From Liolophura sinensis (lineage: Eukaryota; Mollusca; Polyplacophora; Chitonida; Chitonidae), in the NCBI RefSeq assembly GCF_032854445.1, contig NC_088302.1:32147979-32211978 (forward strand): a DNA stretch of 64,000 nt, in the 5' to 3' direction. A program made the translations under genes and the position numbers. The notes below the pieces were generated by a model, which was not told where the DNA came from, did no database searches, and saw only the letters and a list, made by a program, of their open reading frames with translations. Below, one piece after another: positions 4,001 to 58,000 of the stretch. How positions within the stretch are numbered: position 1 is the stretch's first letter; each line of letters opens with the position of its first letter.

Positions 4001-7000
4001 CTGTTGAGACAGGCTGGCTTTATACACGTAGGCCTAGTCAGGCCTGTACTCCAGCTCACATGCTGATAGCACTCGCTGTGAGCGCCTCGCTGGAGACTCC
4101 TCTGATCTACCCACTTGCTCTCAGTATTAGTGAGTGCCTGTAGTTATTGTGATGGTGCGGTAAATTCAAACACAGCTAAAATTAAAATGTTTTGCTCTAG
4201 GAAGTTTAAAATTTGTAAACGTTTCTTTACTGCATAACGATGTACTAACCACAGAACTAACCTACCTGTTCTGAGCTTGGCTTTTCAAGCACATGCAATT
4301 TATGACTTAGTCTTATGAAAATCGCTTGATCATATGGAGTATAATAGCTGTCAAAACAGCTTTGTTATCAGGAGAGCCCAAATTAAGGGCTAAGCCGGTC
4401 CGGGGTTTCAAGTATGTTCCTAGTTGACATCCTTTTTTTAATATTTCTGACCACTGATGGGAAATATCAATAAAATAGAGGGATTATTAAGAAATATAAA
4501 ACATGCCTCAAAAATGAAACTTTCATGGCATATCTTTACATTCCTTAAAGACCATAATCTTCATTTCATAGTACCCTTGTCACATCTTTTAAGTCTCATA
4601 TGAACCAAGACTACAGAACACATAAGCTGAAAAGCGTATATGCTGTACCTTTTGCCAAACTTGACTTTACCCCTTTCTTTAAGGCGCAGGTACTGCCATC
4701 TGACAAAGCTGTCGTAGTACGGGTTGTAGTCAGTGGTGATAAATGTTCGTCTCCAATCCACCTGTGATTGAGATATTTTGTAGGTAAGTTTGTAAGCAAG
4801 GAATGTGAGCCAATATCAGCTATAAACTCTTGATTAAAACATAGTTAGCACTGTATTTATTATTTATTTGATTGTTCAGTGTCAAATTAATGAAGTCTTC
4901 ACTTACATAATGGTGGTCAGTTTTATGGGTGAAGAAAACCACAGTGGCTAGGAATAAACCACAGACTTTGGGCAAGTTACTGATAATCTTCCATATGTGT
5001 CACATACAGATATGTACTCTCCCTCACACAGGGAGAGCATGGGGAACTACAAATTCCTGTCCAAGGTTGCAATGATGATGGAAGTACTCCTAATTTCTGA
5101 TTATCTTACCTTCAGTCCCATCTTCTGTAAATCTGCTTTACAATGAGGGGGAAAGTACTGGAGCCAGTATTCATGGTTTGCGAACTTTTTTATCTCTTCA
5201 TCACCCAAGCCAAGAGACGCCATGATCTGCCACTGGTACTTCAGACCACCTGTCTTGGCCTTCAGTTTTGTCTGAAATTAGAAAGCTAAGAGCTGAAGGA
5301 CTAATACACGAGGGACATGCAGATACACTTTTGTGGAACCAGGGGATAGACTTTTGAGGAACAGGGAGATGCGTTTTCATGAAACAGACAGATACACTTT
5401 TGTCGAACAGGGGGATACACTTTTGTGGAATGGGGGATACAATTTTGTGCAACAGGGGATACACATCTGTGTAACAGGCATACTCTAACACAAGAGCTCT
5501 GGATTTACCTTCTTTCCTTTTGACTTGTCTTTGATGACAGGTTCTTTGTCATCTTTACTCTCTTCTGTCTGATCCTCCTCAGCAGGGAATACAGGAGGAT
5601 ACCCATAATCCTCCATTTCTCGTTTCAATTTGTCAGCACATGCCTGCAGATGACAGAAATGAAACAGTTAATTAGTAATCAAACAAATGCAAAATTGTTC
5701 GACTCAAAAGTGTTGCGCACGTTTTATCAAATGATTATGATCAGTCATGATCTGGTAGAATTTTGCAGTGACAATACCGTACCTAAAAATTTGTCGTTTT
5801 CAATGGGTCCAAGAATGGCTGGCTAAATAACTGTTACCTCAGTCAGTCAAGAGGTTAAATTGATGGGAAATTTTGTGTAATGTACTAGTAGTAAAATAGT
5901 AGAATTTGAGGATGGAGAAAAGCACTCAGAACTCTTTCTTAAGAATCCACTAAATCTAAACTTAAAGCTTTGACTGAACCCACAGCAAATGAACCGTAAA
6001 CCATGAAGTGCTAGGGATCTTCGTGTATTTATTTATTTGATTGGTGTTTTACGTCGTACTCAAGAATATTTCACTTACACAACGGCGACCAGCATTATGG
6101 TGGGAGGAAACCGGACAGAGCCTGCAAGAAACCCATGACTATTCGCAGGTTGCTGGAAGACCTTCCCAGTTACAGCCGGAGAGGAAGCCAGCATGAGCGA
6201 ACGCATTGGTGAGAGGCTCCTGGATCATTACGCTGCACTAGCACGCTAATGAACTGAGCCACAGAGCCCCCCCGGGATCTTTTTGTAGAATGTATGTATC
6301 TATGTACACTTGGGCTTTTACCTCATAGTTAACTTGTCAGTTACATGATGACCAAGAGTTGTCATACGACGACGCAGAGTCATTAGGTATGTGTACATAC
6401 ACGGTGCCTCTTTGTGGCAGGGTGAGTCCATGCCACCAAAGTTCTACCACCACTAAAAACGCAGGTTCGGTTCCAGGTCTCAAAACTTCGAGGCTTACAC
6501 TCTAACCATTAGGTCACTTCATGTAGAAGCAAGAACTTCGCTCAAACGGTTGGCAAAACAGGAAAAACAAACAATTCCAATATGATGACTTACTTTGATG
6601 GGCATGCCTGTACAGTGGAGGCCAAACGGATACAAGCATCTTTTACCCCTTAGACGTTGAAAACCTGCAGCGAACTGAAAAAAAATTTTTACATTTTTTA
6701 TTTGATTGGTGTTTTACGCCATACGCAGGAGTGTTTCACTAACGTGACGGTAGCAAAATTATGCTGGAAGGAAACAGGGCAGGGCTCCTGTAAAGTTTAC
6801 GACTATCGGCAGTTTGCTGGCAGACTTTCCAACATACGACCCAAACCAACATGAGACTAAGCATCTTGGTTTTCATTTCTTAATATGCTGTAGGTTAGGT
6901 GGCCTAACTTATACAAGTGCAAAAAAGCTTGTCAGCTTTATGCCCGGGTGTAAAACAACTTCAAACTACGATTTTGCTAAGGCCCCTATGGTCTATCTGG

Positions 7001-9692
7001 AAATTGCTGTGGTGATGTCAAAGGCATGATTGCTGTCAAAGAAGTACTAATCAAATAAATCAAAATACCTTTACCAAGTATGTCAACAGTTCACCCGCTA
7101 TTATTTTGGCCAATTTATTAACAGCAAAACTGAGAAAGAAGCTAACATGTTGAGATGGTCATGTCTAGGTGTGACATGTCTAGGTGTGACATGTGGCAAT
7201 CAAGTCTTCCATGTGACAGTATCATGGATATCTTACCTCTGCTTTGGCCAGTGTAAAAGTGTGTCCCAAGTGAAGGCGGCCATTCATGTAGGGGTAGGGA
7301 AATGTCACCATGTACTTCTCCTGTCTACAGATAAACAGTAATCATTCATGCAGGAGTAGGGAAATGTCACCATGTACTTCTCCTGTCTACAGATAAACAG
7401 TAATCATTCATGTAGGGGTAGGGAAATGTCACCATGTACTTCTCCTGTCTACAGATAAACAGTAATCATTCATGTAGGGGTAGGGAAATGTCACCATGTA
7501 CTTCTCCTGTCTACAGATAAACAGTAATCATTCATGTAGGGTAGGGAAATGCCACCATGTACTTCTCCTGTCTACAGATAAACAGTAATCATTCATGTAG
7601 GGGTAGGGAAATGTCACCATGTACTTCTGTCTACAGATAAACAGTAATCATTCATGTAGGGGTAGGGAAATGTCACCATGTACTTCTCCTGTCTACAGAT
7701 AAACAGTAATCATTCATGTAGGGGTAGGGAAATGTCACCATGTACTTCTGTCTACAGATAAACAGTAATCATTCATGTAGGGGTAGGGAAATATCACCAT
7801 GCACTTCTCCTGTCTACAGATAAACAGTAATCATTCACGTAGGGGTAGGGAAATGTCACCATGTACTTCTTTTGTCTACAGATAAACAGTAATCATTCAT
7901 GTAGGGGTAGGGAAATGTCACCATGTACTTCTCCTGTCTACAGATAAACAGTAATCATTCATGTAGGGGTAGGGAAATATCACCATGTACTTTTCCTGTC
8001 TACAGATAAACAGTAATCATTCATGTAGGGGTAGGGAAATGTCACCATGTACTTCTTTTGTCTACAGATAAACAGTAATCATTCATGTAGGGGTAGGGAA
8101 ATGTCACCATGTACTTCTTTTGTCTACAGATGAACAGTAATCATTCATGTAGGGGTAGGGAAATGTCACCATGTACTTCTTTTGTCTACAGATAAACAGT
8201 AATCATTCATGTAGGGGTAGGGAAATATCACCATGTACTTCTCCTGTCTACAGATAAACAGTAATCATTCATGTAGGGGTAGGGAAATGTCACCATGTAC
8301 TTCTTTTGTCTACAGATAAACAGTAATCATTCATGTAGGGGTAGGGAAATACCACCATGCACTTCTCCTGTCTACAGATAAACAGTAATCATTCATGTAG
8401 GGGTAGGGAAATGTCACCATGTACTTCTCCTGTCTACAGATAAACAGTAATCATTCATGTAGGGGTAGGGAAATGTCACCATGTACTTCTCCTGTCTACA
8501 GATAAACAGTAATCATTCACGTAGGGGTAGGGAAATGTCACCATGTACTTCTTTTGTCTACAGATAAACAGTAATCATTCACGTAGGGGTAGGGAAATGT
8601 CACCATGTACTTCTTTTGTCTACAGATAAACAGTAATCATTCACGTAGGGGTAGGGAAATGTCACCATGTACTTCTCCTGTCTACAGATAAACAGTAATC
8701 ATTCATGTAGGGGTTGTTAAATGTCACCATGTACTTTTTCTGTCTACAGATAAACAGTAATCATTCACGTAGGGGCAGGGAAATGTCACCATGTACTTCT
8801 TTTGTCTACAGATAAACAGTAATCATTCATGTAGGGGTAGGGAAATGTCACCATGTACTTCTTTTGTCTACAGATAAACAGTAATCATTCACGTAGAGGT
8901 AGGGAAATGTCACCATGTACTTCTCCTGTCTACAGATAAACAGTAATCATTCATTTACATGTTATTTGACACCATACTCATTAAATTCATATATTAGGCT
9001 GAAGTCTAGTTAGTTATATGAAGATAATATCTGTTTACCAAAGACTTCATAGTCATGAAGAAAGCACAGAGCTTCGGTAAGACAACGCCAATTTTATTTA
9101 AAAAAAAATATGACTGTAAATCCATCTTTTTATTTTGTAGAAGATTTTTGATGACATAAATATTTCTTAAACTACACAAATTGCTGGGGAATTCCAAATT
9201 TCACACAAATGAGATGATTTCAAAGTTCAAACTTTTTCAAAACATGGAGCACTTTGACCTGTAATCTTACAAGCGACAAACTGGAAATGTACACAACTTC
9301 CTTCTTATAACTGGACAAAGCTGAAGCAGTATGTCTTTCTATTTGTATACAAGTATATTTTTAGAATGATCACTCAACTGCAATTGACTTTCATTTGAAT
9401 CAGTCAACCAACCAACTGAAATTTCTTTTTCAATTTATATATGGCATGAAAGAACATCTCAGCTAACCACACAAAAGAATAAAAAATACAACTTTTAACA
9501 ATTTTAAGAAATGTACATGCTGCGCATTAATGATGTTAACGGAAATACATCTCGAACCGACACTTACTTCGCCTCTTTTGAATTTGGTGCAGGAGCATCT
9601 TCTTCAAATGTCTTCTCTCGTTCCCATTTTTCCTGCATACATCTTTCTATTTCTAACAGTTCGCTCAGCTTTGCAGTTCCCTTCCGCTCCAT
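1091..9692 (-). CDS. LARS1: Cytosolic leucyl-tRNA synthetase, 5' portion (8 coding exons, first 354 residues)
   Basis: Class I synthetase that charges tRNA-Leu with leucine in the cytosol. Exons in transcription order: 9568-9692, 7237-7324, 6594-6674, 5509-5643, 5110-5271, 4649-4761, 2182-2245, 1091-1384; all junctions are GT-AG and keep frame (phases 2,0,0,0,0,2,0). The start [17 protein letters not shown] resembles the animal LARS1 N-terminus. Residues 50-63 hold [14 protein letters not shown], the HIGH signature of the ATP site. Exon 8 enters the CP1 editing domain, with [12 protein letters not shown] at about 292-302. The human protein is about 1,176 residues, so roughly 70% of the gene, including KMSKS, lies off the left edge. 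Intron 1 holds an array copied from exon 2, and introns 2, 4, 6 and 7 hold repeats. It faces NUDCD2 head to head. The family assignment is certain; the 5' UTR is not resolved. Confidence 0.96.
1451..1682 (-). mobile_element. SINE family A
   Basis: In LARS1 intron 7, about 70 bp from exon 8. The tail, body and head are recognisable; there are internal deletions in the body and in the head around GCGCTAGCCAACTG. Confidence 0.88.
2980..3206 (-). mobile_element. SINE family A, internally deleted
   Basis: The head is well kept (TTAGCGCGCTAGCGCAGCG on the minus strand), but the conserved 3' segment with GTGAAATATTCTTGAG is missing between tail and body. Confidence 0.87.
3237..3365 (-). mobile_element. 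SINE family B fragment
   Basis: Matches the body of a second family, marked by 'gggtggaggaaac' and 'acaagttactagcaaa' on the plus strand, also seen at 4858 and 46840. It abuts the family A copy ending at 3206. Confidence 0.5.
4858..5050 (-). mobile_element. SINE family B
   Basis: Starts with an (AATA)-type tail and carries the family B body (tttatgggtgaagaaaacc ... gggcaagttactgataat) in the LARS1 intron between exons 5 and 6. The head is hard to define. Confidence 0.55.
5318..5484. repeat. Minisatellite, about 27-bp unit, 6-7 copies
   Basis: Diverged tandem copies of a unit like GATACACTTTTGTGGAACAGG lie in LARS1 intron 4, within 50 bp of exon 5 on one side and 30 bp of exon 4 on the other. 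Confidence 0.8.
6025..6272 (-). mobile_element. SINE family A
   Basis: Near full-length copy in LARS1 intron 3 with a clear tail, body and head; the B-box region is partly deleted. Confidence 0.88.
6330..6520 (-). mobile_element. SINE family C fragment
   Basis: Resembles the third family seen at 13734, 15800 and 36825. It shares the gtgtgtacat/tggcagggtgagtccatg block and a tRNA-like end with a B-box-like stretch (ggttcggttccaggtct). Confidence 0.6.
6690..6842 (-). mobile_element. SINE family A, 3' half, abutting LARS1 exon 3
   Basis: The truncated copy's tail lies within about 15 nt of the splice acceptor of LARS1 exon 3 (exon edge 6674), so its A-rich end runs into the T-rich tract before the AG. 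Confidence 0.8.
7325..8949 (-). repeat. 62-bp tandem array built from LARS1 exon 2 start plus its 3' splice site
   Basis: About 26 extra copies of a 62-bp unit fill the exon-proximal half of LARS1 intron 1. On the coding strand each unit is ATGAATG, then attactgtttatctgtag (intron end), then the first 37 nt of exon 2 (ACAGGAGAAGTACATGG onward), ending just before the next ATGAATG. Only the copy nearest exon 3 continues into the HIGH signature, so only it is the true exon. The intronic part and AG are almost unchanged in every copy. Variants (TCCT or TTTT before the splice site, two units shortened by 3 bp, Met-to-Val and Thr-to-Ile changes) are shared by some units, as expected from unequal exchange. 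Reading through units is not open in frame, because 62 is not a multiple of 3 and TGA appears in the next unit. Confidence 0.95.
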
Positions 9693-9794
9693 GGCTCAAT
9701 CTTCAAAATAATGACACGAATGATAAATATTATGTTTGATAAGTCTGAAAAACGCAGGCTAATCCCGAGGAACACTTAATGGATATCTGCTGAT

Positions 9795-9905
9795 TATTTA
9801 TTTGATTGTTGCTCAAAGACTTTTCCACTCGTACGATGGCAGTCGGGTTTATAAGACACACGGGTGGAAACAGTAAATCTCCACCCTGTCTTTCAAGAAG
9901 GGACC
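9795..9905 (-). mobile_element. SINE family B fragment
   Basis: Tail 'tatttatttgattgttg' followed by the decayed family B body (acgatggcagtcgggtttataagacacacgggtgg). Confidence 0.5.
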
Positions 9906-9939
9906 CCTGTTAGACCTTGTATCGTTAGTAGCCCTGGAT

Positions 9940-10395
9940 GACTAAGTTTGCCTCTTTATATTTGTTCTGGCGCTTGCATACGTTCAACCCAGTAGAAAGC
10001 TTCGTAAAGTGTCAGAAAACACTTAATTACCTCACCGACCTGTCCAGTTACTCGTTTACAATGCTTAGGGTCCTAGTTCTGGCGACCAGGATAAGCACCA
10101 TGCTTAAAATACAACAGACAGAAGACAGTGGCCATTTTTGGAATTTGGAATCAGCGTACAGGATGAGCTTGCTGGAATATGGAAGGATATTTATCTTTGG
10201 GATGATCAACAGCAAGTGATTTTATCAGTCTGGTGTTCTAGCACCCAGAGCATTGTAAAGAAGTAACTGGACAGGCCGGGTAGGTTAGTAATCAACTTTG
10301 TTCTGACACTTTATGAAGATTCCTACTGGGGTGAAAGGGAACTAGCCATGATATATGTGAGGGCCAGAATAAATATAAACAAGCAAACTTAGTCA
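9940..10395. mobile_element. Foldback (long inverted repeat) element, MITE-like
   Basis: The ends are complementary: gactaagtttgcctctttat at the left pairs with ataaacaagcaaacttagtc at the right. Complementarity continues inward for about 165-185 bp per arm (cttcgtaaagtgtcag against ctgacactttatgaag; gtccagttactcgtttacaatgct against agcattgtaaagaagtaactggac). A loop of roughly 100 bp follows. A related partial copy lies at 51115-51340. No transposase and no clear target-site duplication were seen, so 'MITE-like' is an inference. Confidence 0.75.
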
Positions 10396-11520: not shown

Positions 11521-11836
11521 CAGATTCTACACCTAATGCTGTCTGCTAGCAAATCTTTTGGGAGCTAGGCAAAGATGANNNNNNNNNNNNNNNNNNNNNN
11601 NNNNNNNNNNNNNNNNNNNNNNNNNNNNNNNNNNNNNNNNNNNNNNNNNNNNNNNNNNNNNNNNNNNNNNNNNNNNNNNNNNNNNNNNNNNNNNNNNNNN
11701 NNNNNNNNNNNNNNNNNNNNNNNNNNNNNNNNNNNNNNNNNNNNNNNNNNNNNNNNNNNNNNNNNNNNNNNNNNNNNNCAGATTCTCCACCTAATGCTGT
11801 CTGCTAGCAAATCTTATGGGAACTTGGCAAAGATGA
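11521..11836. other. Assembly gap (200 N) flanked by a 58-bp duplicated edge
   Basis: N run at 11579-11778. The 58 bases before it (11521-11578) repeat after it (11779-11836) with about five differences; both end in ggcaaagatga, which holds the NUDCD2 start codon. This looks like two overlapping contig ends, probably different haplotypes, not merged. Confidence 0.9.
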
Positions 11837-21000: not shown

Positions 21001-24000
21001 ATGGCATTAAAACAACTACATAATGAGGCTGGGTTTATGTATTTTTTCCGCCAACACTCAGTGGTCTCCTCTGAATGACGTCATACAAGTTCAACCTTTA
21101 CCGGCTGTCAGAGCTTCGCCATTTAGTTCAATGTTAAAAAACCACACAACAGTCACAACAAGCATATCAAATTTCTCCACAAAATGGTTTGCTGTTTACG
21201 GTTGTAAAAACAGGTCATCGAGGAACCCTGGAGTTAGTTTTTTCAAGTTTCCAGACGATTTGGCCCTCAGGAAAGCTTGTATTCACGCCACAAGACAGAA
21301 GGTTTTATACCCACCAGACATAGCCAAATCTTTGCTGGGATGGTAGGAGTTGGGATAAGAAATCCTGGCAGGCAGACATCTCTTTGAATACTGCTCAGGG
21401 TAGATGGGAAAATAATCTTACATACCGGTAGTGATAATCCATACCCCACTGTTTAAATCTCTGAACAAGATTACGAGGATTAGCGACTCCGCAAGAATCA
21501 AAAGAGGATTAAAGTTACCCTTCTTAATACCTGTTTGACATACTTGAGTAATTCCGGCCATAATATAACTAGGAAAATTAAACAGTTGTAAGAGTCTTTT
21601 TTTTCAGTATTGCCTTGAGTAAATGCATGAAAATTAATTCCTGCGTACTCATTTTTGAAGTAAATCCATTTGGGGAATAAAATGATATTTATTGTGAAGT
21701 GGACAGAAGGAAAGAATAGTAAATATTAAATCTTATATTCACACGAAATGTAGATTTACAGTGTAACACAGGATAAAACTATAGCTTAATAGTCCATATT
21801 GCCAGTGCGGTTGGAAATGGCGGGACAAAGATCAAATTCCACTTCTGAAAACTTGTAATCTGAAGTCTGACCAGAGATGTCATTGTCATAAATGTTAGCT
21901 TCAATATCGCCCACTATGGGCTCAAATTGATACAGCATTATATTTGCTTCTGTGTAACTAGAATCCATCTAGAAGCTGACATCATGTTGATACGATAGGT
22001 TCATAGGTTATAAATGCCAGTGAGACATAGGATGGTCATCTATGATGTCATCCACTGAGCTTTACTGGCAGCCGGCTGGATATAAGCTAGGGCAGTAAAT
22101 CTGTTGTTTTTTTCGTGGATTTGAAGTCATAATTATTTTTCTCAGAGGCCCTACAGGTTGCTACTTAGTACAAGTTGCTAAATCTGGACAACTAATCCTT
22201 TAAGTAAACACATGAAAATTATGGTTGTGGATGAGGCAGTTAGTGTGCCAGCACGGCACAATGACCCAGGAGCCTCTCGCCAGTCTGGTCACTGTGAGGA
22301 AAGTCCAGCTTATGCTGACTTCCTCTCTGGCCGTACTTCGGAAGGGCGCAGCAACTTGTGGATTGTCCTGACTGTTTTTTCCCGCCATAATGCTTTCCAC
22401 AGTCGTATAATTGAAATATTCTTGAGTACAACATGAAACACCAATGAAATAAATCAATAAATAATTCAAATCTGCTTCATCTCTGTTAAATGTGAGTGTG
22501 TTTTACAGTTTCACAGGTGGTACGTAAAAGAGCAGACCGTGGTCCCAGTCGCCCAAACAGTGCTCGCTCGAACCATCCTGGAGGTGCTGGTCAAGATACA
22601 AGTCAAGCTGGGAAGAGTTCCTCACCAGAGTCAGCCTTGAATAATATAGCAGTTCCCAAAACCCCAGGAATCCTTAAAGCAAAGACTTCAGCTGTGCAAG
22701 TTGTCTATGTTCCCAGAGGTATATTTTTTTATGAAGAACATTGCTTGAAATAACAATTACACTTTGTTATTTTGAATTCTCTTTCAATTGCCCAAGGTGG
22801 TTAGCACACCTGTGCAGTGCAATGATCTGGGTGACTCTGACCAATGCAGTCGCTGTGAGTTCATGCTGGCTTCCTCTCAGTCCGTACATGGGAAGGTTTG
22901 CCAGCAACCTGCAGATGATCGTGCGTTTCCGCCAGACTCTGCCAGAAATTTTCTTGAATACGGTGTAAAACACCTATGAAATCAATAAAATAAATGGTAT
23001 TTATAAAGTAAATATATGGTGAAAAGAAAAATCATTCTTAAGGATACAGGAAAAGTGTTGTAAAGTGAAGACTATGGTTTTACCCAAAATGAAGAAAGAT
23101 TTGACAAAAGAATGAGAAAATAATTCCTCCATTTCCGTGAGTGGTCATAAATATTCAGAGATCATGTCACTGATAAACATACTGAAAATGTGGCATCAGG
23201 TTAGCACCCCCAATATGAGCTCTCCCCCTAACACAGTTGGTGTTGACGTCATCACAGCAAGCTGCTTAATTTCCTGAGTGGCTGCTAGGGCCTCTGGGAA
23301 ACTGTAGTGTAAAGACATTTTTGCACCTCAAGATGAAAACTGGGGAGATTTTTCATACCTGCTCCTTACTAAGAAATAAAAGCTAATCGTTTTATGTATC
23401 TTTCAACCTGTCATAGGCAGTTTACTGCATAAAACTGCTTTTCCAAAATGTTAAAATGAATAAACTTTTGTGTTGGGATGATAAATGTAGGAATATTTCT
23501 TGTCCATTTTACATATTTTATGGTAATTAAACAAGTCTATGTTTGTTTGTACACTTTCCATGTCACACATGGGAGAGTTTGTTATATGTTACCAAAGGTC
23601 AGTGTTTTATCGCAGGCACTAAACTTTCCTTATCCCATTAAAAAATTGACTGCCACTGTAAAATGTCGTCGTTAAAAATATAATGCAAGCTGCCGTCATA
23701 TTAGTGAAATATTCTTGAGTAAGGCGTAAAACACCTTTTAAATGAATAAGATAAAAAGAATTGTTTGGTTTTTTTAGCGGACTTCTATTTACATGTTACC
23801 TTCTTCTCAGCTGCCCCTGCAGATACTGAAGACAAGCAGCCAGTGGAAGTGTTGGCCATGTCACCTTCAGCAGGTGTGGACCAGGGTAAGGTGGTGGAGG
23901 TAAACACACAGTCAGAGCAGTTGTCTCAGGTGCTGGCCCAGAATTCCACAACACACAAGGTAAGTCCTACCAGGATGTAGATCATAATCCCAGCACCTGT

Positions 24001-27000
24001 ATCAAAAGTCGACCCCAAAAAACCCAAGATGGGCAAAGATTTCTAAGTAGATGGTTTCCTAAATGACCCTTTGATTTATCTAAGATGGACATAAATTGAT
24101 AAGAGGGTGGTGATCTCAGTCACCATGAACTATCCAAGGTGTATGCAAATTTACAAGTGGTTAGTGTGCTAGTGCAACATAATGACCCATGAGCCTCTCA
24201 CCAATGCGGTGGCTGTGAGTTTAAGTCCAGCTCATGCTGGCTTCCTCTCCGGCCATACGCAGGAAGGTCTGCCGGCAACCTGCAAATAGTAGTGGGTTTC
24301 CTCTGGGAACTGCCTCGTTTCCGTCCACCATAATGCTGGCCGCCCTCGTATAAGTGAAATAATCTTGAGTATGGCGTAAAACACAGTCAAATGAATAAAT
24401 AAATAAATTTACAAGTGCATGGTTTCCTGTGAGGCGCTGTGATTTTTTCAAAGTGGATACTCCAAATTGAAAAAGTTAATAATTTCAACAAAATGTTGTG
24501 TTATGTTGAGGAAAAATATAAATATAAGATGCTGTCATTTGGTGTCATGGTGTTTTTTCAGAGATGAGATAACATACTGAGCAGTGTTTCACAAATTTGA
24601 AATCAGAGATGAGATAACGTACTGAGCAGTGTTTCACAAATTTGATTGTAAATACCGTGCCAACATACGTTTTAACACGTGGTTGCCGTGGTAACTACAT
24701 TCTGCTTAGCCTGCAATTGGTTTAAGGAACATGACTCCAGGGTTTGTGTGGAGACAAACATTACTTTGCCTGTGTTCAAAATATTTCCTATAAATGAGTC
24801 AAATTTTGTGTGTCTTTTAGGCAACACAAGTTTTAACTTTTGTTTTACGAGTGTGCTGACACTACAAAAATCCAAGAAAGAAATAAAACTAAAAATCTAC
24901 CTTTTTATTTTGTCTGGTTTTGATGGTTTGTTTATGATTTTGCTGTTTTCCAAGATTTTCTGGTCATGTAAATATGTCTTCAACAGGGAAAAATTGTCAA
25001 GACAGTCAACATTTTCCACAGATTAGTTTTTTTATTTTCATGCCTTCCGCCAACATTGAGAAAACATTTATTCTGCCTGTAAAACAACAATAAAATATAG
25101 TGTGGACTTATTTATGAATAAAAAAAATGCAGTACATTTTTTATAGTGGAAAACATGATGACTTATTTCTCCTCCATGAATATAATCAGTGTAATATATT
25201 CAGTGTAAAAAATGATATAGGATACAGTTATAACAGAAAAATATGTAAAAAATTCTATAAAGTTTTTAAAGCCGAGAAGATAAATTTCAGCATTGGGGAT
25301 GTGCACTGACAGACAATTCACTCTGAGTAGCCATGTTGTAGAAGCACTTATGAACTTGGCCAATTACTAGAGCTGAAAGTATCGTGTGATAGTTGGTGGT
25401 CACATCCAAAAACCTATTAGCTCTCAATTGTCAGTGTGGTTTCTTACACTGGATAGACAGACATTGATGCAATAAAATTGGATTTTGCGGTTAGTTTAAG
25501 TGTTAATCTGATGCATTTTGAACCACACATTTATGAGCAGGGAACTGAGAATGGCTGCCCGTGTTAAAATGCGTTCATGTTTGGCAGGATACAGCAGTTA
25601 CTTGTCAGGGTGAGCTGGCAAGAAAACTGCCTTGCGAGAGTCATTGCTAGTGACTTTTCATTATTTTTCCTTATCAAATTCAGATTTATTACGAAAAAAT
25701 CTTCCCATAATCTGAATGAAAGGGTCTGTTATCAGTCAGAAGATCCTGGTATGTTGGGTAAATTTCCTGAAGTCGGTACAGCCAGCTATGCTAAATGCGT
25801 ACACTTGTGTACGTCGATGGTGAGCAGGACTGCTCAAAAATGTCACTTGTGTCCATGAATATGTCCCTGACAGAATGCCAAACTGAAAGAAATATCGGCC
25901 CTTTGAACACGGAACAGAGCTGATACTCTTTGGTTGGGTGTCAGGCTTTTTTGTTTGTATTTCCTCATTCTCACATTGTTTAATACCGATGTTACAGCAG
26001 AGCTCCTGGGTTTTTCTGACGTAACTCTAGATAGTTACATCATGGCAAAATCGCATCACAAAATTAGCGGGTAGGTACTGTCAAATGTGTGCTATTTATT
26101 TTGTTGATAAGCGGTGTAGAATTATTTTTAAATATTTTTTAGAACATTTCTGGAATACAGTTTTATTAATTAATTCAGCTTTAGTGGCTGACTGTATGTT
26201 CACTTCAATCCCCCGTCCTTTATGTGGTAGTTCTGACAAGTCAAGTTCTGCAGAATTCTGTTTATGTTGCAGACAGTTGAGCTGTTAACGGAGCGAGTAA
26301 TGAAACTGGACGAATATATGACAGCGGTTAAGCTTGATCTGGAGAAATTCGTTCACAAAGAGGGAAGAAACAGCGAGGAAAACAGAGAGACAATGGCAGC
26401 ATTTATGTCATCTGTAAATAGTAAAATAGATAACATAACAGCCCGTCTTCTGCTGGCAGAGAACAGGGTGGCCATTCTGGAAAGTAAGGTAAAGGCCTCT
26501 TGAACTTAAAAGAAAGGACAACACTAGGCCAGATGTATATATGCATCCATGAAGTGTCCCACATAATGTTAATAGAGTAAACCTTTTTATTTTTGAGATA
26601 TTGCTATTCAAATTAAGTGAAATTACACATGTGTAGACGAAAGCACCGCTATCTTATAAATTTTAACAAATTTGGCGTGTGTTATTTTGATAGCCCGAGA
26701 ACACATTTGTTTCAGGTCATGTCATCCGAATTATGTCTTAACCATATGAGTAGGGTGGTGGTGAGGCGACATCATATTCACTGTTTCTCAAACATGGCAT
26801 CTCCCGTGGCGTCATAAGAATTACAGATTCATAATTGATTTACAGAGTTACAAAGTTCGTCAAAACAAATCTGCCTTGGTAACTGGCAAAGTCTGGAAAA
26901 AGAACTGTTGAAAGTTCCAAATACAACAGCATAAACATGCCGTTAGTGAACTGTTTGTACTTTTGCAATTTGAAGATAGAATTAGAACTTGTCTGAATGA

Positions 27001-39415: not shown

Positions 39416-40864
39416 TTACTTGAGTTCGGTAATACCGGTATCTGTACAGCTCCATTAGTAGAGAAAGTCTAGCACATGGCAGTTTGGCCGATGGGACTTC
39501 AATTTGAACTTTAACCACCGAGAAAGTCCTTCTGGAGAAAAGTATAACACTAAAGCCATCAAAAGCCTGTCTTCATTTATTGTTTTATGTATTTCTGTAC
39601 TTATTTATTATTCGCAATATGTTTGCAATATGTTTTATTTAGTACGTCTCTGCATTAATATTGGGTGTATATTTTCCTGCATTTATACGTATAGATGTTT
39701 TTAACTGACAGTTGTGAAAGGTTGAAAGCATGTTATCAAATAGGATAAATCTTGTTAGTCTTAGTTTGATCTTTGCATTTGGGCTTAAGCACAAATCCCT
39801 GAAGAAAAAAAATGTGCTGTCCTAAGGATTTGAACTCTTGTCAGTTTTGATAAGGGAGAGATTTTTTGTAAGTGATGTAATCTGCGTCTTTTTATAAGTA
39901 TGTAGAGAGATGTAGAGTTAATATTTGTGGTATTTCCCAGCATCTTAATGCCACTTTTGAGTGTTGACTTCAAAGAATCCCTTGTTGACAACTGTTTTAA
40001 CTCACTATCCAAGTCCCTCAACTTTTTGTTTTTTTTTTTTTGCTGCTTCTTCCATTCATTGAAGAGGATATTTCTAACAAGTGATTTCGATGAAACAACA
40101 TGCACAGTTTAATGCACATATACATGTATGCAGTGCCATGTGGGGGGTTATTTTATAATAAAATAATTTATATTTAATGCACATATAAGGGTTTCCCAAC
40201 TGTACAGACGTGTATGATATAGTTAGCCACCTACACTTTTCACTTAATGCCCTTGTTTCGCAGAATAACAAGCGAGTTAAGTTTATCCGTCTAGGGCTGC
40301 GGTATGGAATGTTCCGATAATCAAGAGTTTATAGTCTTGTCTCAAGGAAGGTTTCAATCTCTGCACGGATGTTAAACCGGCGTAATAAGTACCACTCCCA
40401 AAATAACCAAGATGCGGTCCAAATGGGATCAGTGTGGTCAATTCGAAGTGACCGCTTCGACAAATATGGTTCCAAAGGTTTGCGTGCACTTTAATGATGC
40501 CGAAAGTATAATAGCTTTGTTAAAACGAAATATGTCCGCGAACTAAAATATATGTTACATCTTCACTTGTTTACTATTTTAACCCAAGCATGTAAAGATA
40601 TGTTACACTTTGCTTTCTAGTTGTTATTTGACTTGTATAATCCGTAGTTTGTGCCATGGCTGGTGTTAACTGCATGACGGAAACTACCAGGTTGCTCCAA
40701 GTTCTGTTACAGTGACATCGGCTAGCTTATAGAAACCAAATGTCTGTGATCATTCATTTTCAATTTTTATACAATAAATACAATAATAACATTGTTTGCC
40801 TCTGTATTTTGCGTTTGGTAACTTGTAGATTTAGTTTTAGTTTGTTTATTCTCCTCAATCCTGC

Positions 40865-45311: not shown

Positions 45312-45409
<98 letters not shown>

Positions 45410-47321
45410 TCACCCTGTAGGGCGGACTGAATCCCAGCTGTGTTAATGGCTTTCTTCAGGATGGTCAATCCGTTCTTGTCGTTGTTGATGTAGTCTAACA
45501 TGCTGCCTGTTGGTGGTGACATGGGGGTATCAAGAAGCCAAATGACGCCATTGCTGGCAATCTCGTCGGCACGATACACGGGAGCCCCTTCCGCCGAGAT
45601 TTTCTGCACATTGAACGATAAGACTAAAGCAATCTTGAATCATTGTGCATATCTTAGAACACGCTAAATTTCTGGAAGCATTTCTACGTACAGATAGAGT
45701 TTAAAATCAAGCCAGATTTTGAAACTGGATTTTTACACGTTAGGATTTTATGGATCTCTCACATAGGTGTTTAGATAGTGAACACAGCCACTCTTAAGTA
45801 TATACTACTGTGCTGTCGTTTTAGATTATATTATTCGCCTTTAAATCATAACAAGAGCCAATCAATTCTGAAAAACGATAATTTTTTATCCAACTGCCAC
45901 TTTTCTTTTCAACCTCATACAGCTTACTAGTATCTGTGGGAGTGGAAGAATATACCGCGTGGAATAAAGTAGCAGGTCATGTTAAAGTAATTTATATCTT
46001 TATTGATCATGCTATTTCATTGGAGGATTATTTGCCATCTATATTTACATGGATTCTGTGTGAAGACATTACCTAAAAACCTCTGAATAAGCCTAAAATT
46101 GATACACAATGTGATGTATTACACATTCTCGTAATTTTGTGTATTAGCTACTGAAATAAATTTTTGAAATATATGACAAGGTACTATATTACGTCACAGT
46201 TGCCACAGACGTAAACATATGTCCTACGGCAAGATTTCAAAGCTATGAGTCTGTTACAAGCGTTTAAACGATTGCTCTCGAGTCGACCATTTCATTCACT
46301 GACTTGCATTAGGACTTACGTTGGTGTGAGCATAGCGGTTAATTCTGATGGCCGGTCCTAGAAGACTGGTCAGTTTCTGCTCGTTGTAAACATCAGCACC
46401 TTTGTAGGTCCCAGAAACCACGTGGTACTTGAGCAGCTTTGTTACCGCTGCCGTGTCGTTCAGTTGGCCACCGTCAAGCTTGCCAAAGGCATTGTCACTC
46501 GGAGCAAACAATGTATACGGACCTGAAATATTAAGGGAGTGTACGGACCTGAAATATACAATGTAGTTGTATCGAAAAACTTGAAGTGTTGGGAAAGTTG
46601 CATGAGAAACTGATTATAATGTGTCGGAAGCCACATTTACTGCATCTTCACACGCGCATTAAATCTCCACTGGCGTAAATCGATGTCAACCGAATGGTCC
46701 CCATAATCAACTAACCTGTTCTGACTCTAGTCGAACCAAAAACTATCCATGACAACCGCACATATTCAATTCATAAATCAATACATTTATCTTTCACGCG
46801 TGGCTTTAGATTAAACTAGCTTAATCACAAAATTGATTGATTGATTGATTGTTTCAGGGTAGTGCTCAGTTTTACGTGTGGAAGAAACCATAGCGACCGC
46901 GGCAAACCACTAACTTTACTTCATGTGGGGGGGCTTATCCATTGCCCGGTAAATTTATGTGATGAGGGTGCTACATAAAGGTATGTGGTAAACTACCGAC
47001 CTTTGTCAGGTTACTGACAAACTTTCCCAGGTGTGACATCCAAGTTTTACACGCCATATTGGTCGAAAACAAGCAATCTTCAACGAGCCTAGATTAGACT
47101 ACGCAAATAGAAAGATTAAGTCTTCGTATGAAAAATGTCATTATTTCTCCCATTTTGGGTGTAAGGTATTTACCCCCTGTGGCCAAAGTGTCGGCCAAAC
47201 CAGTAGCCTGGAGCTGCTTGACGAGAATGTTCAGGCGAAGGGACTGCGCCAGCTGGACCAAGTTCTGATCAGCCCCGAGGACCTGGTGAAGGCACAGAGC
47301 GAAGAGCACCAGACACTTCAT
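42686..47321 (-). CDS. Secreted protein with two fasciclin (FAS1) domains, gene 1 (294 aa, 6 exons)
   Basis: Predicted extracellular adhesion/matrix protein of the FAS1 family (as in TGFBI, periostin and insect fasciclin I, but only two domains). Exons in order: 47174-47321, 46320-46522, 45414-45603, 44411-44509, 43459-43572, 42686-42816; phases 1,0,1,1,1. The signal peptide is [17 protein letters not shown]. Domain 1 covers about 20-150 with [15 protein letters not shown] (H1), LLKYHVVSG (H2) and [10 protein letters not shown]; domain 2 covers about 155-292 with [24 protein letters not shown] and [16 protein letters not shown]. No EMI domain, RGD, anchor or membrane segment is seen. An array of about 45 TA units begins six bases into the intron after exon 3. 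The divergent neighbour at 49071 is its paralogue. The biological role is unknown. Confidence 0.93.
43313..43332. repeat. Poly(C) tract
   Basis: About 19 C in a row in the fourth-to-fifth exon intron zone of FAS1 gene 1 (after exon 5 on its strand). The length is likely unstable or mis-sequenced. Confidence 0.8.
44858..45080 (+). repeat. Dispersed repeat, copy 3
   Basis: Begins tggggccaattccacgaaac and runs through attttgacacatttgtaaaa; similar to 41220-41350 and lying in a FAS1 gene 1 intron. Confidence 0.45.
45316..45407. repeat. (TA)n microsatellite, about 45 units
   Basis: Uninterrupted TA repeat next to the splice donor of FAS1 gene 1 exon 3 (exon edge 45414, donor gtgagg at 45408-45413). 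Confidence 0.97.
46320..47321 (-). other. Signal peptide and first FAS1 half-domain exons of gene 1
   Basis: Exon 1 encodes the signal peptide plus helix [20 protein letters not shown] and ends inside the Gly-Gly before PYTLFAP. Exon 2 carries the H1 and H2 motifs. Gene 2 cuts its coding sequence at the matching Gly-Gly in the same phase, which is the strongest sign of common origin. Confidence 0.85.
46840..47045 (-). mobile_element. SINE family B
   Basis: Tail ttgattgattgattgtttca and the family B body (gtttta then acgtgtggaagaaacc; ctttgtcaggttactgacaa), in intron 1 of FAS1 gene 1. Confidence 0.6.
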
Positions 47322-52000: not shown

Positions 52001-55000
52001 AAAGAAAAGTGCAGGGGACAATATATCCCGTCGAAAGTTGCCTAGTGGACTGCATATTTTGGTGCATATGTAGTTATTGCGTCACCTAATACTTTCGTGT
52101 GTGTAACTTACTATCCGTCAAGATACGTGCTATGTCAGTAATGAAATATTTTCTCAAATACTGCATGTGGATAAAGTGAACAATGTTTATTATACACTGA
52201 CGAAAGTACAATTATCAGGCCTGTCACCGGCAGGGTGGAAAGGTGGTGGCGTCGTACAAAAGCAAGTAGAATGACTATCCCAGCTAATTATAGGCGAGGG
52301 TGCAGGGATCGCTCAGGCATCACAAGCACCTGCACTACCCGGGCCCCACCCCAACCCCAATTCCTACGCCACTGCAGCTTGTTCACATGACCTTGAAAAT
52401 ATGTGCATAAATTCTAGAACGCAGTGGTAAAGAAATACATTCAAGAAAGTTATCAATGTTAATCAATGAGCCCCCCTTTTTAAATTGTTCATTTTAAAAA
52501 GCTTGTTCTTTATTGAACTGACGTAACTCTACCATTGGACAGCAACTTCAAGTATAAAATTCCCCTAACCTGATCTTCCATGTAGGTTGCCTGAACCAAA
52601 AATAGTAAATGGTAATAGCACAAATGGGCAAAAACAGACCATTTTCAGGGTCTACCCTGCTGTGGTCACCATCTCGATTTGTTGTAGACACCTGATTAGT
52701 GTGGCCACTGAAAATACCATCAAGGAGAATAATCCCCGCACTCAAATATACATCTGTCTGTATTTAGGTTGATAAAGGTCAGGACCTGAGGGTCTATACA
52801 GTGTATCTATAGTGTACATTCATAATAATACTGTTAATGCAGCATGATGGAGGCGGGCTCACTAACTGCTATGGTATAGGCTCGGAAAATTTGAATGACA
52901 TGGACCCTTTCAGTTAAGCGAAACTCTCAACAGGCTACTTAACTAAGAGACCACATTATTGAGGATGATTTGTGATGGGGAAGTTTTGAAAGACAAGACA
53001 GTACTTGACCAAATGTATATTTGCATCGATTAAGTATCCCATAGAAAGTTTTGTTTAAGAGGCAAAAGGGGTTATATTGTCCAAAGATATTTACGACGAA
53101 TAACACTATTTGCCCCCTACAGTTGAAGAGTCCTCATCAACAAAACGTAACATTTTCATGATGTAATAATATTCTTTATGGGACGCTGAATCAGGTAGAT
53201 GTGACGTTGAGTAAGGAAGTTATGCTGGCATGACGTCATGTGCATTTAAAAATATGACGGCATTTGTTGCCATACGTCAGCAATGGGTGACGCCACGTGT
53301 TTTTGCATGACGTAACAGCAGGCAAAATTTGAAACGACAGAAAACTTTTTGTCCATATCATCATGAAAACAACAACGCGAATCCTAACTTACATTTGTAG
53401 GCTGTTGTAAACACTGGGGTTACATTTACGTGTGATTTTCTATGTCACTACTTAGGTCAGTCCATTCATATTTCGCTGTGTGAGGCTGGCCAAATATGGC
53501 GGAGACACTTTTCAGATGTAGTTAACATGACACAGGCATGTGACACACGCACATCCGCATTTAACCCTTACCATGTACATCTGTATTACAGGCGTCTAAA
53601 AACCACGTTCTAGCACATCAGTTCGAGTGATTTAAGAAATAGACTACGGACCCGACATGCAGTCTGATGGAAGTTCCACTCCAGAGCATTTCGAAACAAG
53701 TAAATCCTTTCAGAAAGAGAATAAATCGCAAAGCAATGTCATCAATGACAGGGACACGTAACAGACAAACACTAAAATGTTGAACGTTTCATGCGCGCTG
53801 TCTTTCTTTGTATGTAAATTGAACATCTCCCCATTCAATTTCAACCAACGAAAAATCAGTAAAAGCACGTGACCGTGGAGAAAAAATGACGACAGAATGC
53901 ACATGAAAATCCAAACGTAAATATAACCCTAGTCCTTACAACTCCCCCTGCCAGTGTCAATAACTATAAAGGTACTTTGACCTTTGTAAAGTTCAACCTG
54001 ACTGGGCCGTGAAATGTGCACATTTATACAACGAAAGTTCAGGGCTTTGTTGGGTTAGTATGGTTCAGTAAATCAAGGTAGATGATGTCAGAAATCGCCG
54101 GTTTGAATAAATGAATTTATTATGATATAATAATAGATATATATGTGCTGCAATGAGAGCAAAGACGAATCAGCTTTATTTCAAGAAACTAACATGTTTC
54201 AAGTGTGAGTTGAGAATCCCTATGACATACGCTAGGACTTGTCCCAAAAAACCTGCTACACAATCATTAATTTAATGAGAGTTAGGGAAGAGGTCGTGAT
54301 GAAATGAAACTTTCTTTCTGTCTGAAGTAATGCCAGTTTAATAATCTTTTCTTTCTGTTTATATATTCATTCAATATGTTTTAATTATCAAAGTTTGTTG
54401 ACACAATGGTTTGAAAGTTCTCTGTTTTAACTCATCTCTGCGCTTTATTGGAGTCAAAAAGAGATTATAAATATTCTGACGGTTTTGGTTGTAGACATCC
54501 ATGGTTGTATGGTTGGCTTGTCTGATTGGGGTTTGACCTAGCTATAAACATTATTTCAGTGATATCACAGTGGTGTCTACTTTTAGCCAGTTGGACTGAA
54601 TTAATGTTTCAGCCCAATGTAGCGCTTATGTGGATAACAGTTTCAAATTTTTAATTAGCAAATATATTGTGTTGTAAAGATAACAATAAGGTCCCTCGGA
54701 GTGATAGTTTAGACATCTTTTTAGACAATACTTTCAACTTGCTAATTAGCAAATATATTGTATTGTTCTGATTACTTTCCCTGGCTCTGCTAGTTAGCAT
54801 CTATTTAGACAATACTTTGAAATTCTCAGAAGATATATACAGTATTCTGGTCATTCTAGTTTGCAGCTATTTAAAGTAGATTTGAAATGCTAACTTGGAA
54901 ATATATTGTAACAGGGAATTCTACTGAGAAATGCTGTTTACATGCAAACTATTGCTAGAAATGCTAAAAGCCGATAGTGCACCTTAATAGCTTGGAGCAG

Positions 55001-58000
55001 GTGTTACTTCAGATCTAGTTTGCCCTACAGATCAGTAAAGGCAGTGGTAAACATTACAAATATATATCGTAATGATGAGAAATTTTCTTTTCAGCAACAA
55101 ATGTGCAATGGGATACCATGTTTTTAAATTTGTATATTGGATTCTCGGGATCTCTGATGCACTGACACGTTGCACATTACAGGCCCGTTCACCCTGTTGG
55201 CACCCACTGATGCCGCCTTTGGAAAACTGCCTGAAGCGACCTTGAGCAGTTTGCAGTCAGACAAAGCTGCTCTCACTGATGTCCTTAAATACCATCTCAT
55301 CCAGGGAGACATTTTCAGCTGGGATTTGCTCAGTGGGGACAGGTTCACCACCCTCAATGGCCGTCGGGTCAAGGTCACTACCAGTGGCACGGTAAGGGAT
55401 AGGACGATTTCCTGATCGTCGTCATCTGAAAGAATGCACCGTGGCCATCTATAGAGCTAGTCTAGATTCTCTTTAATATTTATTTATTTATATTTTACTG
55501 ACTGTTATAATGTCGTATTAAAGATTTTTCTATTGATTCTGAGGCTGTATGTTTTATGAGTGGAGTATACCGGAGTTAGTGGTGTAATCCACTAGCCTTC
55601 AACAGGCTCCTGGCAAACCTCTTAACTAAAAGTCCAACTAGCCAGAGCAGGATCAGAAATTGCGACCTCACTGGCCAGGGTTTTTAACATGTTCTAAAAA
55701 TTGTCAATTTCAAAATCTGAGTTAAAAGGTGAGTGTTAATGAAAGTGAGTGACAAAAACAAAAACACATATATTTGAGACATTTGATAACATGCATGACA
55801 TAGACTTCTAAAAACATAGAATATAAGAATGGAATAAAATATTGTAAGTGTTGAGAACTCAATTTTTAACCTTGAGAAATCAATTTTCTACCTTAAGAGA
55901 ACTATGTCCACCCACGAGAAGCCGTTTTCGCCATAGAGGAAGTGATTTAAGGTTTAAGGTTAACGATAGTTCAGTGTATAGAGCGGTTTATTACAGATAA
56001 TAATGTATTCTTCAGTGAAACCCAAACATATAGACTAACAGGTTATTGGTGCGTTATGAAAACGGATGTTTTATATCCACTGTAGTATAAGTGAAATATT
56101 CTTGAGTACGGCGTAAAACACCAATCAAATAAAATGGATGTTTGTACAGGGTCGCTATTTCCATTGGTTGACAAGTCAACGGGATATAGGTACACAATTC
56201 TTAAACATTACCGGGCTACAAGAGACTTTGATTAACGCCTTGAAATTACTTTTGCAGACCACCATGTTTAATGGTGCTAAAGTTTTGGTTCACGACAACG
56301 TGGCGTCCAATGGTGTGATCTACCTTATTGACACTGTGCTCACTGTTCCCGAGGCATCCATCTTCCAGGCCATCAGCAACCGTCCGGAGCTGAGCACGTT
56401 CGTTGACGCTCTCACCAGAGCCCGTCTAGACACCTCTCTCAACGCTACCAACATTAGATACCGTACGTCTGTTTAAACACAAATTGTTTTTTTTTTTTGG
56501 GTACCGCAGTTTAGCCGTGCCGATATTGAGTCCATTCAAGAAACTTAGATTGGCACGATTTTGGGCTCTTGAACGCCACCAAAAATATACCCAACATTTA
56601 AAGAAAAACTGTTTTGCTTTTGGTAGTGACAATTTGACCTCACCAGTATTAAGTATTCTTTAATTTAACTTTTTCCTATTAGCACACCTTGTCCATTTCT
56701 GTCTGAAATTTGTTTCTGTCTACGTTCGTTTGGGGTTGACTAAGCGTCGCTTTCAACAGTATCTCGACCATGATGGTGGTCAGTCCAATGTCGACGTATT
56801 AGAAATCCGGCCTCACTGCTACGACAACACAAGACACGACGAGCCCTCCAGTCACAATACAAAGAGCTTTTTAGCCCATACAGTCTCTTTGGGGCCCAAA
56901 CTATTAAATTATTAATTTTCACTTTACATATACTTTCAATAATTTCGGAGGTTTGGAATATATACTCATTCATGCATTTTATCATTTCAGCCTACACTGT
57001 CTTCGCCCCAACCAACACAGCCTTCTCTAAACTGACTACAGAGCAGCTTAACCACATCCTGGAAAGCCGCTATCTTTTGCTAGGTAAGTGTCTCAATAGT
57101 GTAAATTTCAGGCGAAGTCTTCAGGTGAGCAAACATTGCGTGAAATATAACTTATGCAATACATGTATATCGTTTCTTGAACGTTATTTCGCAAGGGTCG
57201 AGTGACAAGAATTAGCATACAGATTGGTCACCGAAATGTCTGAAACAATTGAGTTTTGCATAAGCTAACCAATCAAAGGAACTGTTCAGTCTAAAGGAAT
57301 CATGCAAGCTCTCAGCTATCATTGTTTTTGGCAATGTTTTTTTCCCAGAGCTTGTTGATTACCATATTCACCTAGGCCAACTGCACAAAGGCAGCCTTAC
57401 ACACAACGGTCGCATCACTACCCGTTACAGTGGACACTACATCACAGTTACTATTACAGGTAAGTGATGGCAGCTGATATGGCCAAACAATTTTGGCCAA
57501 ACTTATGCCCCTTGTATTAAGTTGTACTAACTAGGTTTTCTAAATGTTTTACTATCTAATATTGTGACCACTATTAACTCAGATTTCAGTTCAGTATTTT
57601 TACTGAACAACCATACTATGCATCATTGTAATGTACTTTATGTTAACAGATATTTAAACTGTCTTTACATCTTGAATTCATGTGATATATAGTATGATAA
57701 TAAATTAATTTAAATCTGAGTATAAAACAATTTAATTTCGACAATTTAAGCAATTTGGGCGATTCATAGCGTGTCTGCGTTTTGTGCCTGCAATATATCA
57801 TGAATATATTTGAGTGCCCTCGCTGGCTCCTATCGCCATATCAAGCCCTTGGACAGTGAGTCACTTGTTCGGATCCAGCTCTGGCTGTTTCGGCTGTGGC
57901 TTTAAGTCAGGATGTTTTACAGATACCTGATGAATGACGGTGGTTTCCTTCAGGCTCTTCGGTTTCCTCTACCTCATAAACCTGACCACCGTCACAAAAG

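Follow-up and report, generated by a model that had tools for sequence, protein, structure and literature searches.

A 27-unit minisatellite built from the intron 1/exon 2 boundary of LARS1 in the chiton Liolophura sinensis

The gene for cytosolic leucyl-tRNA synthetase (LARS1) of the chiton Liolophura sinensis, a species first published as Liolophura japonica and then corrected (PMC12441733), carries at the boundary of its intron 1 and exon 2 a tandem array in which a 62-bp unit containing the 3' splice site is present 27 times. The array lies in a stretch of 64,000 nucleotides of NC_088302.1 (positions 32,147,979 to 32,211,978; the window), and coordinates are window positions unless another contig or locus is named, with LARS1 and the array read on the minus strand. 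The array constitutes a striking new instance of an already described kind of repeat, new in its mollusc host (as far as the literature was searched), its essential gene, its high copy number and its near-identical decoys. It is highly probable that the array represents a tolerated splice-boundary ('mirage'-type) minisatellite, which would have been born at a pair of ATGAATG heptamers and whose extra acceptors would be mostly ignored.

The array and its host gene

Tandem Repeats Finder placed the array at 7281-8954 with a period of 62, 27.1 copies, 95% matches and a score of 2998, compared to a score of 394 for the runner-up among its 17 rows for the window. Cutting the minus strand from 8947 to 7281 gave 27 head-to-tail units, 24 of 62 bp, two of 59 bp and one of 61 bp, with the last unit (C0) taken as 62. 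C0 forms the genuine junction of intron 1 and exon 2, and the other 26 units are extra copies, numbered C1-C26 outward from the real exon (Table 1), in agreement with the approximately 26 tandem copies proposed in an initial note on the window (the original prediction). The sequence of the real unit, ATTACTGTTTATCTGTAGACAG at the intron end followed by GAGAAGTACATGGTGACATTTCCCTACCCCTACATGAATG at the exon start, is also the commonest form, found in 7 of the 27 units, and C0 passes unbroken into GCCGCCTTCACTTGGGACAC and beyond, giving the protein sequence MN-GRLHLGH. The intron part of the unit, TGTTTATCTGTAGACAG, contains ATTAC and TTTAT, either of which we take, by the branch-point consensus, to be a candidate branch point.

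The original prediction had divided the unit into 25 intronic and 37 exonic bases. However, the frame of exon 1 is continued only by the acceptor ACAG/GAG or by an AG 3 nt later, the TAG 4 nt upstream being out of frame, and the unit therefore consists of the final 22 nt of intron 1 and the initial 40 nt of exon 2. Otherwise, the repeat cut and the exon joins bear out the identification of LARS1 and exon 2, the composition of the unit from an intron end and an exon start, and the position of the array directly against the true exon; the interval first assigned to it, 7237-8949, contains the array but also takes in 44 bp of unduplicated exon 2. The array was likewise correctly said to stop exactly where the exon carries on: its last base opens the codon that follows MN, from which the exon continues as GRLHLGH, and the array ends 8 nt short of the HLGH codons. 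HLGH, the class I HIGH-type motif, thus lies in the unduplicated, single-copy part of exon 2, and the repeat spans 13 residues only. Exon 2 is part of the catalytic core of the enzyme, and LARS1 is an essential gene on which protein synthesis depends.

Table 1 Features of the LARS1 boundary array in window coordinates
Feature	Position	Strand	Basis
LARS1 exon 1, coding part (MERKGTAK...NSKEAK), donor AAG/GTAAGTG, ends in phase 0	9567..9692	-	translation and join
LARS1 intron 1, 2246 nt, including 1605 nt of extra array copies	7321..9566	-	
ATGAATG, 7 bp, in intron 1 directly upstream of the first copy, identical to the final 7 bp of C0; presumed upstream breakpoint homology	8948..8954	-	
The 26 extra 62-bp-type units, C26 to C1	7343..8947	-	repeat cut and unit comparison
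C0, unit at the genuine boundary (intron 1, final 22 nt; exon 2, initial 40 nt)	7281..7342	-	
LARS1 exon 2, 84 nt, acceptor ACAG/GAG, donor GAG/GTAAG	7237..7320	-	
ATGAATG, 7 bp, in exon 2 (M, N and first base of next codon); presumed downstream breakpoint homology	7281..7287	-	
LARS1 exon 3	6594..6674	-	reading-frame analysis

The identity of the gene was supported by a product of 255 amino acids, pieced together by visual inspection from six exons and a portion of a seventh, which matched human LARS1 in PDB with an E value of 1.1e-117. The exon 1/exon 2 join is free of gaps against the human enzyme and has a one-residue gap beside it against LARS1 of abalone, Gigantopelta and Lineus. Exon matches cover 1161 of the 1176 residues of abalone LARS1 (P0138), from 32157670 down to 32126120 on contig C8 (approximately 31.5 kb), and 1130 of the 1174 residues of LARS1 of the ribbon worm Lineus (P0129), with exons extending past the window edge. 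Stops occur in three of the 37 matched pieces for P0138, each at a point where the piece overruns an exon end; we read these as overruns into intron, and the chiton gene, judging from the matches, is otherwise near-complete. Its identity is 71% with Branchiostoma floridae and 71-76% with named molluscs among the leading matches, the best value among the matches listed being 77%. An amphioxus source for the genome was accordingly rejected, and COX1 of this genome is 94% identical to that of another chiton, Acanthochitona defilippii, which headed a list of at least 120 matches. Within LARS1, a 17-residue stretch is invariant across six animals, the chiton included, except for one Y/F position. 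Partial genome duplication has been described for Liolophura sinensis (PMC12005716). Whole-genome searches with the leuS_arch family profile and with the 255-residue part found no second LARS1; the sole other match, on contig C7 (E 7.5e-9 for the profile; 37% identity in a 46-residue stretch for the protein query), is probably another class I synthetase.

The original prediction had also spoken of a satellite born from an essential exon. The origin from the LARS1 boundary holds, whereas the term satellite does not: a genome-wide DNA search, which skips very common words, with a 320-bp stretch of the array returned seven overlapping matches, all within 32155259-32156935 on contig C8. A dispersed satellite family was rejected since the matches are confined to this one site, and the array is a local minisatellite.

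State of the copies and origin of the array

Six of the 26 extra copies (C2, C3, C6, C10, C18 and C19) match C0 at all bases. The array comprises 15 distinct unit sequences with only 0-5 differences from the real one, so its repetition is not due to chance, and lags from 1 to 13 units revealed no period pointing to a higher-order repeat among the units. This pattern bears on whether the assembler inflated one or a few real copies. The assembly was built from PacBio HiFi reads averaging 8,347 bp (PMC11068029); the coverage of only 14x and the apparently concatenated mitochondrial genomes on contig C99, which indicate that the assembly is not free of repeat errors, would allow for such an artefact. 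However, the mean read is several times longer than the 1.67-kb array, and 15 distinct unit sequences without a periodic lag are not what inflation would be expected to leave, making this explanation very improbable.

The real-position AG is not uniformly preserved. A GG to AA change, which converts ACAG to ACAA, removes it in nine of the 26 extra copies (C9, C12, C13, C14, C16, C20, C21, C24 and C25), leaving it intact in 18 of all 27 units, while the TAG 4 nt upstream is intact in 27 of 27. All of the eight copies nearest to the real exon retain the AG, compared to nine losses among the 18 farther ones; the hypergeometric probability of no loss among the nearest eight is 0.016 on the assumption of independent copies, which they are not. 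There is consequently no sign that near competitors have been disabled, the nearest copies being, if anything, the best at retaining the AG. Variable columns amount to 12 of 37 in the exon part against 1 of 19 in the intron part, with columns 20-25 excluded (p = 0.04), a difference not used as evidence because the copies share changes by exchange.

The flanks of the array suggest how it arose. The intron left of the outermost unit, TAAATGAATG, and the exon at the repeat end, CTACATGAATG, have the 7-mer ATGAATG in common. Among random position pairs 62 bp apart in the window, with the array excluded, junction homology of at least 7 bases was found in 487 of 397,946 (0.12%). Minisatellites can start between short direct repeats, and because ATGAATG is present at both original breakpoints, a tandem duplication mediated by microhomology is the most likely origin of the array. 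Slippage or microhomology-mediated repair between ATGAATG copies 62 bp apart may have duplicated one 3' splice-site module, and unequal exchange or more slippage would have expanded the module to 27 units and would keep them fairly homogeneous. The 7-bp repeat at both breakpoints suggests how boundary minisatellites start, a point that the amphioxus globin paper leaves open (PMC3087553).

Acceptor choice and reading-frame consequences

Three acceptor positions in each of the 27 units were joined to exon 1 and read to the end of exon 3. An AG is present at 70 of these 81 positions, and for 68 of the 70 the frame is closed by a stop in exon 3 or earlier, the two that stay open both belonging to C0. 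Use of an upstream acceptor should hence give truncated products of 50-74 codons, adding 59-1609 nt and an early stop to the message, which would presumably be removed by nonsense-mediated decay. Only the unit nearest to the donor is predicted from the reading frames to give a usable message. The array can be regarded as a natural competition experiment: within a single essential gene, 27 3' splice-site units follow one another, and seven are identical over 62 nt. Competing duplicated splice sites have reportedly been studied in globin minigenes.

Where the flanking introns are large, the two splice sites lying nearest each other across the exon are reported to be preferred (PMC9225289). The LARS1 transcript would present its 27 modules ahead of a single exon 2 donor, and exon 2 is flanked by long introns (2246 nt upstream and, by subtraction, 562 nt downstream at 7236-6675), which may lead to exon definition of exon 2 and favour the acceptor nearest to the donor. 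We propose that the array is tolerated for this reason, and no selected function would be required for it. The distance to the exon 2 donor is 84 nt from C0, compared to 146, 208 and 270 nt from C1, C2 and C3, respectively.

Several points weigh against this account. Neither C2 nor C3 differs from C0 at any of the 62 nt, which places more than one acceptor with the same local sequence ahead of one donor; local sequence could therefore not separate them, and the difference would lie in downstream context and donor distance. Among acceptors separated by at least 20 nt, the upstream site is preferred overall; in the exon-definition class, for sites of comparable strength, this preference is described as 'significantly reduced' (PMC9225289), and such a reduction falls short of an outright reversal. 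As the preference is reduced and not reversed, mostly C0 use is to be expected, with leakage to C1-C3 likely. As to the proposed birth of the array, a truncated further copy could instead have left the outer 7-mer.

An ordinary intronic minisatellite with zero consequence for splicing would overlap with the tolerated array proposed here and differ from it only in denying leakage. RNA folding is unremarkable, with z scores of 0.43, -0.34 and 0.06 for three stretches and no fold special to the array, and no Rfam family matched in 5000-10000, both of which are compatible with such a repeat. However, the sequence of the unit is itself that of a functional splice site, for which some competition would be hard to avoid, and complete silence is unlikely. 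Given the same ordinary folding scores and the lack of an Rfam match in that interval, RNA structure that masks the decoys was rejected as well.

At the other extreme, the copies may serve dosage control as poison acceptors, with a sizeable share of transcripts spliced upstream and degraded, such that the number of copies would set the level of LARS1 output, and expression would shift whenever that number changed under selection or drift. All 67 upstream AGs tested lead to a stop, six copies equal the true unit, and the retention of AG in the near copies described above, with its caveat of non-independence, points in the same direction; the title of a paper cited in PMC2630376, as far as a title goes, ties a 31-bp repeat of the human CBS gene to reduced CBS activity. 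Intact near copies are nevertheless equally explained by homogenisation through exchange, the loss of the real-position AG in nine of 26 copies gives no sign of selection for acceptors, and results from amphioxus suggest that comparable arrays leave splicing undisturbed. We regard dosage control as distinctly unlikely, and its extended form, a copy-number-tunable LARS1 brake of 26 poison acceptors with dosage varying among chitons and such arrays general and overlooked in molluscan genomes, as less probable still.

Each unit contains four GT dinucleotides, none of which forms a GTRAGT donor; the best by eye, ATG/GTGACA, 12 nt past the acceptor, lacks what we take, from the donor consensus, to be the +5 G of a good donor. 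Across the array and exon 2, no frame stays open for more than 39 codons, each frame contains 33-37 stops, and every 62-nt unit causes a frameshift. A translated repeat was rejected owing to the stops in all frames. That some copies are real exons in an ongoing intron gain, or that the array copies are translated, is consequently hardly credible, although GT dinucleotides occur in every unit and the amphioxus globin paper proposes arrays of this kind as seeds of new introns (PMC3087553).

Known boundary repeats and other features nearby

Boundary repeats termed mirage minisatellites have been described in amphioxus in Adh3, with units of 10-72 bp, and in the globin genes BflGb6 and BflGb9 (PMC3087553, PMC3902484). 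The Adh3 and globin results suggest that regular splicing is undisturbed despite AG/GT signals in many repeats (PMC3087553); undisturbed splicing is also stated for lancelet troponin C and suggested for PGBD5 with imperfect mirages (PMC3902484). Length instability, even somatic, has been reported, and the mechanism by which mirages arise is called unclear (PMC3087553). The chiton array shares the anatomy that defines mirages, namely tandem boundary copies beside the genuine boundary; its unit, similar to that of BflGb6, joins an intron 3' end to the 5' part of exon 2, and splice signals occur in many but not all units. It differs in its mollusc host, cephalochordates being the only hosts in the papers found (which reflects the known range and is no part of the definition), in its 27 units compared to 6 and 3 in the two BflGb6 haplotypes, and in the 7-bp repeat marking both breakpoints. 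Furthermore, splicing in amphioxus was observed by reverse transcription PCR, whereas the chiton array is known here from the sequence of one assembled haplotype alone.

Human CBS provides two further comparisons. The 844ins68 allele is a 68-bp duplication of the intron 7/exon 8 junction with two competing sites, of which the distal one is used to give normal mRNA; PMC2630376 calls it a 'donor', whereas the title of the cited Romano 2002 paper refers to a 3' splice site. As in the chiton, same-sequence acceptors are duplicated before one donor, but this polymorphic human allele has two sites and the chiton array 27. The CBS 31-bp variable number of tandem repeats (VNTR) at c.1444_1467+7, with 16-21 repeats (PMC2630376), is likewise a high-copy minisatellite, which by its coordinates spans an exon end and intron start; unlike the chiton array, it is on the donor side, has a 31-bp unit and is known to be polymorphic. 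Intron gain by tandem duplication, and internal tandem repeats at exon-intron boundaries of human paralogues, have also been described (PMC2812944, PMC2809761). In those duplications, as in the chiton, local copying makes extra splice signals, and no new intron is evident from the LARS1 sequence. The rarity claimed in the original prediction therefore needs qualification: searches of open-licence literature yielded no boundary minisatellite in molluscs, but the kind is known from amphioxus and from human CBS. As far as the literature was searched, the present array widens the known range of boundary minisatellites beyond chordates to include a mollusc.

Further boundary arrays in LARS1 were also considered, with three additional repeats matched against the complete locus, and this idea was set aside. 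A minisatellite of 22-23 bp units in LARS1 intron 4 (5322-5478; approximately seven copies) matches itself and its immediate surroundings only, and not an exon. Degenerate units of approximately 19 bp at 32130608-32130821 on contig C8 (L012 2608-2821), intronic and close behind a LARS1 exon, also match only themselves and their surroundings, and the array at L012 9535-9579 gave three short matches spread over approximately 7 kb of the locus. A further 51-bp array of 10.9 copies with 94% matches lies at 32124020-32124577 on contig C8 (L013 6020-6577), approximately 1.5 kb past the last LARS1 exon match. The 200 consecutive N at 11579-11778, which precede the start codon of LARS1 by approximately 1.9 kb, represent an assembly gap or a masked stretch.

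COX1 occurs seven times on contig C99 at intervals of approximately 15.5 kb (8348-9688, 23885-25225, 39496-40734, 54929-56269, 70450-71790, 85975-87315 and 101504-102844) and once more on contig C632; C99 most likely consists of head-to-tail copies of the mitochondrial genome, an assembly concatemer. Elsewhere in the window, a THAP-domain-like frame at 21014-21346 (+) scored 23.1 bits, just under the Pfam cut-off of 23.9. Fasciclin-domain exons were found at 45412-45639 (-), 56117-56476 (+) and 56774-57205 (+), the first below the Pfam cut-off and the other two over it, and a (TA)n tract occupies 45315-45407.

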